50,381 bases of DNA. It comes from Bacteroidota bacterium. Lineage in GTDB: Bacteria; Bacteroidota; Bacteroidia; Chitinophagales; Chitinophagaceae. The position numbers and the translations under genes were made by a program. Below the pieces are notes generated by a model. That model saw only the letters and a list, made by a program, of their open reading frames with translations, was not told where the DNA came from and did no database searches. The stretch spans positions 1 through 50,381 of the forward strand of contig JAKQKY010000079.1 in the NCBI GenBank assembly GCA_029560415.1, read 5' to 3'. Positions within the stretch are counted from its first letter, which is position 1, and the number at the start of each line of letters is the position of its first letter. Shown one piece after another: positions 15,532 through 18,948 of this stretch.

Positions 15532-16209
15532 ATGGAGCTACAGTTACAGATAAAAATGAATAATAAATTATTTCTCAGAAACCCCGAACAATCTGAACTG
15601 GGAAAGAAAATCATACTGCACAGCATACAGTTGATAAATAAAAATGGATTTGAGTCGTTCACCTTTAAAAAACTGGCTGAAGATATTGGTACAACTGAGG
15701 CAGGAATTTACAGGTATTTTGAAAATAAGCACCGCTTGCTGATATATATAGCAGCCTGGTATTGGAGTTGGCTCGAATACAGGGTTACAGTTAACACCAA
15801 TAATATTAAAGACCCGGTCGTTAAGCTCAAAAGAGTAATTAAATTATTGGCTACGGTAGTTGAAGATGATGTTAGAACAAGTTATGTCAATGAAAACATA
15901 CTTCACCAGATAATCATTGCAGAGGGTACTAAAGCCTATTTAACCAAACATGTATCTGAAGACAACAAAGACCAGTTATTTAAACCTTATAAGGACCTTT
16001 GTGCAAAAATTGGAATTATTATACTGGAGTGTAATCCAAAATATAAGTATCCGAAATCTTTATCAAGTACCATTATTGAGATGGCACATTTCCAAAATTT
16101 TTTTATGAACAATCTTCCCTCGCTGACCGATTTTGGCAAAACCAAAAATGAGTCAGCGATTGTTTCTTTCCTGGAGGATTTGGTGTTTAGCGCTCTTAAG
16201 AAGCGCTAG
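15532..16209 (+). CDS. TetR/AcrR family transcriptional regulator
   Basis: 225 aa. N-terminal helix-turn-helix within residues about 28-72: ILHSIQLINKNGFESFTFKKLAEDIGTTEAGIYRYFENKHRLLIYI, a clear TetR_N signature. The C-terminal ligand domain is divergent and gives no hint of the ligand. Met9 (MNNKLF) is a credible alternative start. It is divergent from the sulP-carbonic anhydrase genes, with a perfect palindrome between them, so it most likely regulates them and itself. Whether it senses CO2/bicarbonate, a lipid or something else cannot be read from the sequence. Confidence 0.92.
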   Translation: MELQLQIKMNNKLFLRNPEQSELGKKIILHSIQLINKNGFESFTFKKLAEDIGTTEAGIYRYFENKHRLLIYIAAWYWSWLEYRVTVNTNNIKDPVVKLKRVIKLLATVVEDDVRTSYVNENILHQIIIAEGTKAYLTKHVSEDNKDQLFKPYKDLCAKIGIIILECNPKYKYPKSLSSTIIEMAHFQNFFMNNLPSLTDFGKTKNESAIVSFLEDLVFSALKKR

Positions 16210-16372
16210 TTAGGCAGGAAGGGCTTTGCAATTTCAATAAATAGAGAATCTGGGTTTTTTGTTACAGCATAAATCTCGGAATTGGCTTTTAAAAAGAATT
16301 CTTAATTCTATTACAGGGATATGGTCCCGCTTCAAACGGGACGACCTCCACGGTTCAAGTTGTACATCAAAC

Positions 16373-16400
16373 AAAAAAGTCTCTCATTGCTGAAAGGCTT
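16373..16400 (-). terminator. Intrinsic terminator, array copy 1
   Basis: On the minus strand: stem AAGCCTTTCA / TGAGAGACTT with a GCAA loop, then TTTTTTG. One base differs from the other copies (G for A in the plus-strand AAGTCTCTCA arm). Confidence 0.7.
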
Positions 16401-16462
16401 TTTGCTGGGATTTTTGTCGGAATGGTCCCGCTTCTTGCGGGACGACCTCCATACATTGAAAC

Positions 16463-16490
16463 AAAAAAGCCTCTCATTACTGAAAGGCTT
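16463..16490 (-). terminator. Intrinsic terminator, array copy 2
   Basis: Minus-strand stem AAGCCTTTCA / TGAGAGGCTT with a GTAA loop and T tract, exactly 90 bp from copies 1 and 3. Confidence 0.75.
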
Positions 16491-16552
16491 TGTGTTGGGA
16501 TTTTTGTCGGGATGGTCCCGCTTCTTGCGGGACGACCTCCATACATTCAAAC

Positions 16553-16580
16553 AAAAAAGCCTCTCATTGCTGAAAGGCTT
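16553..16580 (-). terminator. Intrinsic terminator, array copy 3
   Basis: Minus-strand stem AAGCCTTTCA / TGAGAGGCTT with a GCAA tetraloop and T tract. First terminator reached by transcripts leaving the GIY-YIG gene. Confidence 0.75.
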
Positions 16581-16650
16581 TGTGTTGGGAATTTGTCGGG
16601 ATGGTCCCGCTTCTTGCGGGACGACCTCCACGGTTTAAAGCGGGACGCTA

Positions 16651-16902
16651 TCAACCGAGCAAAATATTATTGTCAATCAGAAATCGTTTGATCCCTCTTT
16701 TTTTAATTTTTATTTCAAGTGCCATCGCTTCAGATTTATTCTTGCATTCTATCGTGTGAACCAATTTCCAAGGAACGCCAGACTTTGTACTTAAACTCTG
16801 CCCGCTATTATGGCGATACATTCTGTCAACAACATCATTCGTTATCCCAACATAATATTTCTGGCGACTTTCACTCAATAAAAAATAAACATAGCACCTC
16901 AT
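16651..16902 (-). CDS. GIY-YIG nuclease family protein
   Basis: 83 aa from ATG at 16902 (MRCYVYFLLSE). A longer frame starting at 16929 runs through the terminator hairpin and is unlikely. YVY (residues 4-6) and YVG (17-19) are the GIY and YIG elements; Arg27 follows in VVDRMYRHNSG, and the metal-binding Glu is probably Glu63 in SEAMALEIKIKK. The size matches the single-domain UPF0213/UvrC-N-like family, whose physiological role is unclear. It lies just downstream of tRNA-Pro on the same strand, and tRNA-derived repeat units stand on both sides. Its stop codon (TGA, 16651-16653) lies inside sequence resembling a tRNA D-arm. A mobile or tRNA-targeting nuclease is a hypothesis, not shown. Confidence 0.87.
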   Translation of the reverse strand: MRCYVYFLLSESRQKYYVGITNDVVDRMYRHNSGQSLSTKSGVPWKLVHTIECKNKSEAMALEIKIKKRGIKRFLIDNNILLG

Positions 16903-16911
16903 ACTTATACT

Positions 16912-16992
16912 AACAAAAAAGCCTCTCATTGCTGAAAGGCTTCTTGCTGGGATTTTTGTCGGATGGTCCCGCTTGAAGCGGGACGACCTCCT
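16912..16992 (-). repeat. Isolated copy of the tRNA-Pro-derived/terminator unit
   Basis: Same B and A parts as the array at 16316-16656: GTCGGATGG, hairpin TCCCGCTTGAAGCGGGA, CGACCTCC, then the terminator. It separates tRNA-Pro from the GIY-YIG gene, so the nuclease gene is bracketed by direct copies of the unit. Confidence 0.85.
16914..16942 (-). terminator. Intrinsic terminator after tRNA-Pro (copy 4)
   Basis: Minus-strand stem AAGCCTTTCA / TGAGAGGCTT with a GCAA tetraloop, then TTTTTTG. It ends the tRNA transcript about 60 nt past tRNA-Pro and immediately precedes the start of the GIY-YIG gene. Confidence 0.8.
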
Positions 16993-17000
16993 GACTATTG

Positions 17001-17075
17001 TCGGGATGGCAAGATTCGAACTTGCGACCTCCTGGTCCCAAACCAGGCGCGATAACCGGGCTACGCTACATCCCG
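17001..17075 (-). tRNA. tRNA-Pro (anticodon UGG)
   Basis: 75 nt. Acceptor arms CGGGATG / CATCCCG pair over seven positions with discriminator A. Anticodon stem CCTGG/CCAGG has loop TTTGGGA, giving UGG. The T-arm is GCAAG-TTCGAAT-CTTGC. CCA is not encoded. It is the donor-like sequence for the repeat units downstream and for the pseudo-tRNA upstream. Confidence 0.97.
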
Positions 17076-17108
17076 AACTTTTAAAAAACTTAAACTGTTT
17101 GGTTATTC

Positions 17109-17183
17109 ACTATTTGCAAGATTTGAACTTGCAAACTTCCCGCCCTAAAGCGGGACGCGATAACCGGGCTACGCTACATCCCG
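17109..17183 (-). pseudogene. Degenerate tRNA-Pro copy (pseudo-tRNA)
   Basis: The 5' half (CGGGATG through the D-arm) and its leader are identical to tRNA-Pro; the plus-strand block at 17156-17193 matches 17049-17086. The anticodon arm is replaced by a GC hairpin (TCCCG ... CGGGA) with an abnormal loop. The T-arm keeps GCAAG-TTCAAAT-CTTGC, but the 3' acceptor strand (AAATAGT) cannot pair with CGGGATG. A functional tRNA is not expected. Confidence 0.8.
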
Positions 17184-17216
17184 AACTTTTAAACAGTTAG
17201 TAAGATCTGATTTGTT

Positions 17217-17306
<90 letters not shown>

Positions 17307-17462
17307 TTTTGTAACCTGCACCTTGTTTAAGGGGCAGCAAAAATACGGCTCTATAAGATACCACCCAAATCAAAATCGAAATAAATAAGAAATAAGGAAT
17401 AAAAAATCACAATTCAGCAAAATCAAATGCATTTTCTGTTATAAAGTACATCGCTTGCCTGC

Positions 17463-17514: not shown

Positions 17515-18948
17515 TTACATGGCAGCCAGCTGAACTTTTTGCTGAAGCTCCAATACACTTTCTTTAAACAGGTTGTCGGTATCCATCAGATCTTTTACCG
17601 TTTGGCAACTATGGATCACCGTGGTATGATCCCTTCCTCCGAAATGCTCGCCAATGGTCTTTAATGAGTTCTTGGTAAATGCTTTCGACAGGAACATGGT
17701 GATCTGCCTTGCTTGTACGATCTCTCTCTTCCTGGTCTTCTGTAACAACTTATCATAAGGCACATCAAAATATTCGCATACCATTTTCTGGATGGCATCG
17801 ATGGTGATCTCCTTGCTGGAAGATTTTACAAAATTTCGTAATACTTTTTTGGCCAATTCAAGGTCTATTTCCCTCTTGTTTAGCGAAGATTGTGCCAACA
17901 AAGATATCAGGGCGCCTTCAAGCTCCCGTACGTTGCTATTGATATTATAAGCGATGTATTTAACAACTTCACGCGGCATTTCAAGGCCATCGTGTTTCAT
18001 CTTATTTTCCAATATCTCTATCTTGGTATCGTAATCGGGCAATTGCAGATCGGCACTTAGCCCCCAACGGAAACGACTCAACAGTCTTTCCTGTACTCCT
18101 TCCAGGTCTTTTGGCGACTTATCGCTTGTAAGGATCAGTTGCTTGCCACTCTGGTGAAGATGATTGAAAATAGAGAAGAATGCATCCTGCGATTTTTCTG
18201 CCCTGTTAAAAAACTGAACATCATCAATGATCAATACATCGATGAGCTGGTAGAAATGAATGAAATCATTGATCGCATTGTTGCGGCCATGATCTATGAA
18301 TTGATTGATGAACTTTTCTGAACTAACATATAATACAACCTTATTGTTGTACAATCTTTTTACCTCATTGCCGATGGCTTGTGCCAAATGCGTTTTACCC
18401 AAACCAACCCCACCATAAATAACCAGCGGATTGAACGAAGTAGTTCCCGGTTTTTCTGCAACCGTTTTACCAGCCCTGCGGGCAACGCGGTTACAATCTC
18501 CTTCAATGAATGAGTCAAATGTATAAGCACTGTTAAGCTGCGGATCGATCTGCATCTTTTTCAAACCCGGAATCACAAATGGGTTCTTAACAGGATTATT
18601 TATGACAAGTGGAAAATCCATTTCATTATTTGAATATGATTTGTAACCGTTTCCAGGGATATCCATGGTGAGTGGCTTATTCTTGCTGTTGCCACTATCT
18701 ACCATGATCCTGTACTCCAACCTCGCTTCTTTTCCCAATTCCCTTTTCAGGGTCTTGGCCAGTAAAGAAACATAATGCTCTTCAAGATACTCATAAAAAA
18801 ACTGACTTGGTACCTGGATGGTGAGAATTTTTTCTTTTAACGCAACAGGTTTGATAGGTTCGAACCAGGTTTTGAAATGCTGCCACTCAACTATATCTTT
18901 TATAATCTCTAAACAATTAGCCCATACTTTTTCAAAAGTCTTCTCCAT
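17515..18948 (-). CDS. dnaA: Chromosomal replication initiator protein DnaA
   Basis: 477 aa, usual length. Domain I begins with MEKTFEKVWANCLEIIKDIVEWQHFKTWFEPI, followed by a linker to about residue 140 and the AAA+ domain from SAYTFDSFIEGDCNRVA. Walker A GGVGLGKT is at 179-186, Walker B LIIDD at 239-243, and the arginine-finger region is LLSRFRWGL. Domain IV carries the DnaA-box-binding signature GGRDHTTVIHSC. The ATP-bound form binds oriC and opens the duplex. The start ATG at 18948 agrees with the conserved N-terminus. Monocistronic, with its own terminator; the 416 bp upstream is AT-rich and divergent. Confidence 0.98.
   Translation of the reverse strand: MEKTFEKVWANCLEIIKDIVEWQHFKTWFEPIKPVALKEKILTIQVPSQFFYEYLEEHYVSLLAKTLKRELGKEARLEYRIMVDSGNSKNKPLTMDIPGNGYKSYSNNEMDFPLVINNPVKNPFVIPGLKKMQIDPQLNSAYTFDSFIEGDCNRVARRAGKTVAEKPGTTSFNPLVIYGGVGLGKTHLAQAIGNEVKRLYNNKVVLYVSSEKFINQFIDHGRNNAINDFIHFYQLIDVLIIDDVQFFNRAEKSQDAFFSIFNHLHQSGKQLILTSDKSPKDLEGVQERLLSRFRWGLSADLQLPDYDTKIEILENKMKHDGLEMPREVVKYIAYNINSNVRELEGALISLLAQSSLNKREIDLELAKKVLRNFVKSSSKEITIDAIQKMVCEYFDVPYDKLLQKTRKREIVQARQITMFLSKAFTKNSLKTIGEHFGGRDHTTVIHSCQTVKDLMDTDNLFKESVLELQQKVQLAAM

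Follow-up and report, generated by a model that had tools for sequence, protein, structure and literature searches.

The closest described system to the locus analysed here is SegB, a free-standing GIY-YIG homing endonuclease of T-even phages that is co-localised with tRNA genes (PMC13096335). According to the sections of that source used here, SegB has been implicated both in breaking tRNA-containing sequence and in amplifying tRNA segments in tandem, by recombination of the tRNA 5′ region with the 3′ region of the SegB gene, and the same sections make no mention of tRNA-type-specific clades or of hairpins in pseudo-tRNAs (PMC13096335). Judged against these sections, a GIY-YIG protein, co-localisation with tRNA genes and tandem amplification are common to SegB and to the loci described here, a likeness of lifestyle; SegB is phage-borne, whereas the loci here are chromosomal, span several phyla and encode a single-domain protein of 83 residues. 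Among the open-licence literature matches listed, no paper reports GIY-YIG genes with pseudo-tRNAs in bacterial chromosomes, SegB being the nearest (PMC13096335), and in PMC1564403 the word 'tRNA' occurs three times, never on gene linkage. Like free-standing GIY-YIG homing endonucleases, the loci here show a conserved motif, presence/absence polymorphism and a lineage-specific target (the Lys clade apart, see below); a separate DNA-binding domain was not found in Pfam. Some integrative elements use the 3′ end of a tRNA gene as attachment site and keep the tRNA intact. Here, too, the 3′ part of the tRNA is duplicated, the tRNA is intact and the element lies 3′ of it, but each unit of about 0.3–0.4 kb carries a GIY-YIG gene and is too small for an integrase gene; the neighbours scanned in the integrase check were TetR and DnaA only. 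Mobile endonuclease ORFs may also come with an extra version of the 3′ end of the gene that hosts them, as at the mitochondrial atp6 gene of Allomyces, where, as here, the element brings its own copy of the 3′ part of its target, although that target is a protein gene in a mitochondrion and ours a tRNA gene in a bacterium. RAYTs are HUH-type transposases, whereas the gene in the unit here is of GIY-YIG type and the hairpins lie inside pseudo-tRNA arms. What REP sequences with RAYT (TnpA-REP) have in common with our loci, going by the portions of the two sources used, is the pairing of short dispersed GC palindromes with one nuclease gene (PMC8266576, PMC3116915).

The window, a stretch of 50,381 nucleotides, is one whole contig (C37) of a draft genome (G000). 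Behind dnaA (17515–18948) its minus strand carries, in order, tRNA-Ser(gct) as context (17217–17306; ARAGORN), a pseudo-tRNA-Pro (17116–17193), the intact tRNA-Pro(tgg) (17000–17075; ARAGORN and Rfam), a first tRNA-derived unit (unit 1, about 16911–16991) and a GIY-YIG nuclease gene (16651–16902; ORF and Pfam). The pseudo-tRNA-Pro, an 83% repeat of the tRNA-Pro 5′ half with an Rfam tRNA score of 31.1 bits at 17176–17116, keeps that 5′ half and lacks the 3′ acceptor strand; its anticodon arm is swapped for the hairpin TCCCGCTTTAGGGCGGGA (17138–17155, 80 nt upstream of tRNA-Pro), which is also present in the pseudo-tRNA-Pro of a relative (G002). The 3′ side of the gene, on the same strand, holds a broken pseudo-tRNA piece of D-arm-like sequence with a broken anticodon-hairpin remnant (16634–16659; repeat family D5, compare L015), three tandem units (unit 2, about 16548–16629; unit 3, 16459–16540; unit 4, 16369–16450) and a partial unit consisting of the hairpin and its near flanks only (16321–16349). 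ARAGORN, Pfam and the repeat search agree with the earlier note, which had described a GIY-YIG gene after tRNA-Pro amid tRNA-derived units, and the stop codon (16651–16653) indeed lies inside the D-arm-like sequence of the broken pseudo-tRNA.

The units, delimited by repeat search, with folding in addition for units 1 and 3, correspond to the tRNA-Pro 3′ half, comprising the 3′ anticodon strand, variable loop and acceptor end, with the T arm swapped for a GTCCCGC..GCGGGAC hairpin, and a terminator-like hairpin and T run come after. Three exact tandem copies had been reported and were found, but the period given for them, '90, 90, 89', was not: the spacings are 90 and 89, then 363 to unit 1. 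Folding of two units gave z −6.2 each, with 0 of 200 shuffles as good, and the fold of the pseudo-tRNA at 17116–17193 was ordinary by the same kind of test (z −1.0, 31 shuffles as good). The derivation of the unit from the tRNA 3′ part holds, while its end, earlier called an intrinsic terminator, is here termed terminator-like. A simple scan of 16200–17400 returned two sites, in unit 2 (16581–16556) and unit 3 (16491–16466), against a shuffled mean of 1.4 (sd 1.3), which is no excess. No promoter-like site was found in a scan of the same stretch, and an Rfam scan of the window at gathering scores returned three tRNA matches only and no group I intron. Dispersal of the unit through its own genome was considered and rejected, the genome search having found no further copy other than a 31-bp terminator-like match.

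PF01541 (E 1.2e-15, 58 bits against a cut-off of 22.6) is the sole Pfam domain in the 83-aa window protein, and no separate DNA-binding domain was found by that search. Residues Y17, G19, R27, T39, E63 and K67 are invariant across 29 aligned sequences, and we take them to include the GIY-YIG catalytic residues. The closest solved structures by sequence profile are 1zg2 (E 5e-17) and 1ywl (9e-15), followed by SLX1 7cq2 (4e-9), so that UPF0213 single-domain GIY-YIG proteins and the structure-specific endonuclease SLX1 are the top structure matches; we know of no tRNA-linked element described for either. NCBIfam gave no match at 0.001, PHROG endonuclease matches were weak (2.3e-5 at best), and membership of a known defence family was rejected, the PADLOC matches being marginal only (0.0013 at best). 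Carriage by phages or plasmids was likewise rejected: in viral contigs no relative was confirmed for either the window protein or the Met alignment (A2), and the matches of a Met-clade protein, to one Azospirillum plasmid and 10 Rhizobium phage records, reached only 36–38%. Among ten chosen Met-clade genes, nine usable pairs had a median dN/dS of 0.15, most other pairs being saturated, while a stop codon interrupts 7 of the 93 GIY-YIG matches from the census described below; active and decaying copies thus exist side by side.

The window layout is part of a wide pattern that recurs in several bacterial phyla. A census of 59 genomes (the window's own and 58 relatives), searched with the window protein, gave 93 matches in 36 genomes, of which 89 loci were analysed with a five-fold array counted as one entry. 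A tRNA or tmRNA lies within 600 bp of 66 of these 89 loci, as far as 526 bp away in one of them (L124), and the nearest is on the same strand in all 66. Chance adjacency would be expected at one or two per cent, estimated from about 45 tRNAs per 3 Mb. The nearest tRNA or tmRNA is upstream in 49 of the 66, within 100 bp in 45 and mostly at 35–60 bp; in the remaining 17 its start falls between −22 and +68 bp relative to the stop codon. As for the 23 loci with no tRNA or tmRNA in this range, five form a clade of their own, unlike window-type loci in having no tRNA nearby, 15 have <300 bp of contig on one side, and three are others. Of these three, L023 sits between two hairpin pseudo-tRNAs, L038 bears a tRNA-Asp 3′ fragment, and at L114 the end of a tmRNA is about 0.6 kb upstream. 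The window's genome has a second GIY-YIG gene (C317), 36% identical, which stands after tRNA-Glu; behind it come a copy of the tRNA-Glu 3′ part, whose T loop bears a CTGCCTGC..GCAGGCAG hairpin (seen by eye and not scored by the junction-mapping script), and a second terminator. At a further site in this genome (L085, 1472–1700, G000:C236), tRNA-like sequence with an anticodon-arm hairpin lies beside what appears by eye to be the C-terminal end of a decayed GIY-YIG gene. Elsewhere (L035, 1036–1784, G035:C168) a GIY-YIG gene is preceded by tmRNA, and 20 bp of the tmRNA 3′ end are repeated beyond the gene.

tRNA type and protein clade go together. In a tree of 85 proteins, 60 of them labelled, 26 changes of tRNA label are required where shuffled labels require 42.6; once outside samples are added (151 rows, of which 117 have a label), the figures are 37 and 81.5, and in either case 0 of 200 shuffles were as low; the alignments are short (84–86 columns) and many forks unresolved, and label shuffles ask only about clustering, to which close kin contribute. 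For the Met clade, where tRNA-Met was the expectation set beforehand, 80 loci from named genomes were kept of 280 confirmed, spanning Bacteroidetes, Balneola, Rhodothermia, Ignavibacteria, Cloacimonadota, KSB1 and Marinimicrobia and including three near-identical Niabella loci besides the seeds. A tRNA lies within 400 bp, always on the same strand, in 62 of the 80, and it is tRNA-Met in 58, tRNA-Asn in three and tRNA-Asp in one; with the five seed loci (all Met) removed, tRNA-Met stands at 53 of the 57 loci with a tRNA, of 75. The three at tRNA-Asn (L221, L229, L252) are all from Cloacimonadota, a possible change of target. The Asp and Asn samples each drew on 395 genomes of the phylum. All six Asp-clade loci (five genomes) are at tRNA-Asp, two of them >400 bp away, and tRNA-Asn is nearest at seven of nine Asn-clade loci (seven genomes), the others having Gly and Phe. 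The expectation failed for the Lys clade, for which 30 loci were fetched of 46 matches listed, at 38–60% identity: a same-strand tRNA lies within 1.5 kb in 27 of the 30, and the nearest is tRNA-Lys in none (Asp 6, Ala 5, Val 4, Gly 4, Asn 4, Pro 2, Ser 1, Arg 1), one locus having tRNA-Lys as second neighbour. The association with tRNA genes thus persists at this level of identity, but the target does not stay the same. Clades that follow tRNA type are what is expected if the nuclease acts at tRNA-gene sequence, and the earlier suggestion to that effect gains in plausibility from comparison of the sequences.

The junctions of the foreign hairpins were mapped at the 64 loci with a tRNA, tmRNA loci being left out. 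Both junctions inside a copy of the adjacent tRNA were placed in 36 of the 64, and in 21 of the 64 no foreign hairpin was found. The anticodon arm is replaced (about 26–30 to 43–46) at Ala, Arg, Leu, Lys, Pro and Val loci; the hairpin occupies 36–38 to 47–51 in Met and Asp loci and 25 to 36 in Asn loci. T-arm hairpins occur at Phe and Leu loci, at one each of Arg, Met and Asp, and in the window's Pro units (51 to 67), and D-loop hairpins at some Arg, Leu and Met loci. By script test, the 43 hairpins listed include 26 of TCC..GGA type and six of CTGCC or CTGTC type, no fewer than three of those listed being terminators. Of the 80 loci in the Met set, 56 have TCCGC..GCGGA and 24 lack it; in 50 it directly follows [AT]TA, which in the tRNA is the end of the anticodon loop. 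Variant stems in this set, TCCGGC..GCCGGA (L229, L233, L239, L252) and TCCGTC..GACGGA (L237), indicate that pairing is kept while the letters change. Tandem 57-bp units of a tRNA 5′ part plus hairpin lie directly upstream of a tRNA called Met(cat) by ARAGORN at L066 (1480–1742, G014:C40). In the Asn clade, the ORFs of L040, L131 and L045 share the C-terminal residues LAQLVRVPHVRD, read from the tRNA-like sequence of the next pseudo-tRNA.

We consider a minimal chromosomal selfish element of homing type, in which a GIY-YIG nuclease is specialised on one tRNA gene, to be the best explanation, with a probability of about 0.57. Its starting point is that a single-domain GIY-YIG gene stands next to an intact tRNA, in many cases with a hairpin-bearing pseudo-copy of this tRNA on its far side, and is flanked by duplicates of the tRNA 3′ part, some including the terminator and some not. 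The nuclease would cut a tRNA allele that lacks the element, and repair or a single crossover would then use the tRNA piece of the element as a homology arm, so that the tRNA is rebuilt and the displaced half turns into a pseudo-tRNA. Repeated cutting, together with recombination between copies, could give tandem arrays, and the GIY-YIG gene would at last decay and be lost. Most likely the hairpin either ruins the spare copy as a site of cutting or recombination or is a structure that the nuclease recognises. Since cloverleaf or cruciform structures can arise at a tRNA gene, recognition of a branch is plausible, and branch plus tRNA sequence would make a plausible nuclease target. Such a lifestyle may resemble that of phage SegB. 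Simple homing immunity is left unexplained, since the intact tRNA beside the element keeps its sequence. We infer cleavage, homing and the role of the hairpin from sequence, and comparative evidence supports, rather than proves, mobility and targeting.

A more tentative and clearly less probable proposal is that these loci constitute a new class of autonomous mobile element of ~0.35 kb, composed of a GIY-YIG gene and a pseudo-tRNA, one arm of which bears a GC hairpin. Its nuclease, related by sequence to cutters of branched DNA, would read the cloverleaf or cruciform of the tRNA gene and the hairpin-marked copy, and the element would integrate by recombination into one tRNA type, amplify in tandem, radiate to new tRNA types and seed REP-like hairpins genome-wide.

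REP-like palindromes are dispersed in many of the searched genomes (G009, G010, G003, G000 and the Niabella genome G452 among them), and it is conceivable, though doubtful, that the system is REP/RAYT-like, with the GIY-YIG protein mobilising short GC hairpins, the pseudo-tRNAs serving as their breeding ground and the tRNA link being secondary. TCCCGA..TCGGGA occurs 614 times in the 59 genomes against 37 for the reversed-pattern control, TCCGCC..GGCGGA 169 times against 20, and the latter 66 times against 0 in G452 alone. Genomes richer in GIY-YIG also tend to have a higher hairpin total (Spearman 0.51, p 3e-5; kinship ignored and pseudo-tRNA copies included), and TCCGCC hairpins are commoner in Met-clade genomes (p 0.003 with the core set alone and 0.014 once divergent members are counted, again ignoring kinship). 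Most of the counted hairpins are unplaced, however, and many of the copies displayed lie away from tRNAs with no tRNA-like flank. Two genomes with no GIY-YIG match are nevertheless rich in TCCCGA hairpins (G037 with 36, G016 with 15), while the exact TCCGCC pattern is absent in four of 11 searched Met-clade genomes (G453, G454, G458, G462), some of which bear a variant hairpin in a pseudo-tRNA. Mobilisation of hairpins would also leave unexplained why the clades follow tRNA type.

The gain and loss of the element bear on whether the gene is instead a resident of the host, that is, a vertically kept, tRNA-linked nuclease serving, for example, tRNA-gene repair or maintenance, while recombination yields pseudo-tRNAs as a by-product. 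For the tRNA-Pro site behind dnaA, 30 loci were fetched, 20 of which had the tRNA and at least 300 bp beyond it (three had too little sequence and seven no match). The earlier note had proposed comparing empty with occupied tRNA-Pro sites, and this comparison gave two of 20 genomes occupied by GIY-YIG (G000, G002), four with hairpin units or a unit end and no GIY-YIG (G009, G031, G008, G015), and 14 with neither. GIY-YIG is present at this site in G002, whose DnaA is 95% identical, and absent from G009 (98%) and from G004 (99%), where the tRNA pair is inverted relative to dnaA. No clean empty/occupied pair giving exact insertion ends was found at the Pro site, and the terminators behind tRNA-Pro vary between relatives in the loci inspected. 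The relatives thus do not show one site inherited vertically by all and never empty, the pattern that the earlier note had set against its own reading. Its proposal of a tRNA-associated, self-amplifying element agrees with the empty and occupied states and with recurrent arrays; the window's genome has no other copy of the unit. Same-genus pairs mostly have the same clade at an apparently orthologous site, their upstream flanks being similar and their downstream flanks often different, while between-family pairs mostly have no common flank, except Asp and Asn. Orthologous sites in most same-genus pairs point to allelic gain and loss and not to hopping between tRNA loci. Vertical descent with loss would also put the same clade at an orthologous locus, which tells against homing, and the within-genus dynamics are produced by homing and by vertical descent with frequent loss alike. 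The orthologous positions, together with the purifying selection in measurable pairs, are what a resident host gene would lead one to expect, but we think it unlikely in view of the empty Pro sites, including that of the 99% relative, the broken copies, the different tRNA in each clade and the tandem arrays.

Five GIY-YIG copies stand behind tRNA-Asp with a period of 365 in G026, five with a period of 315 in G351, and paired copies in G302, G245, G205 and Niastella caeni. The three near-identical Niabella loci were rejected as proof of transposition, their identity covering about 3 kb, like large duplications. Three tandem tRNA-Leu-like hairpin units with a period of about 107 lie at a contig end beside tRNA-Gly in the window's genome (L147, 1–330, G000:C364). 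Duplication of tRNA 3′ ends in tandem through slippage or unequal crossing-over, a passive process in which the GIY-YIG gene hitch-hikes, would suit the gene-less arrays in G009, G031 and C364 of the window's genome, and tRNA repeats with other genes would escape a sampling that started from GIY-YIG, but it is very improbable given that distant genomes agree in orientation, spacing and clade-wise hairpin position and that GIY-YIG recurs.

Returning to the homing-type element specialised on one tRNA gene, we regard these loci as a novel form of the lifestyle seen in free-standing homing endonucleases; that they make up a new class of very small element is a real possibility. The arrangement that relatives have kept possibly points to a new style of selfish genetic element. 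If this is true, tRNA-type-specific nuclease elements colonise the chromosomal tRNA genes of Bacteroidota and neighbouring phyla, and they would be a very small candidate for autonomous mobility and a suggested source of pseudo-tRNAs and some palindromic repeats. They would also offer natural nuclease/target pairs for studying how GIY-YIG specificity evolves. The origin of the tRNA-derived repeats in these genomes becomes directly testable.
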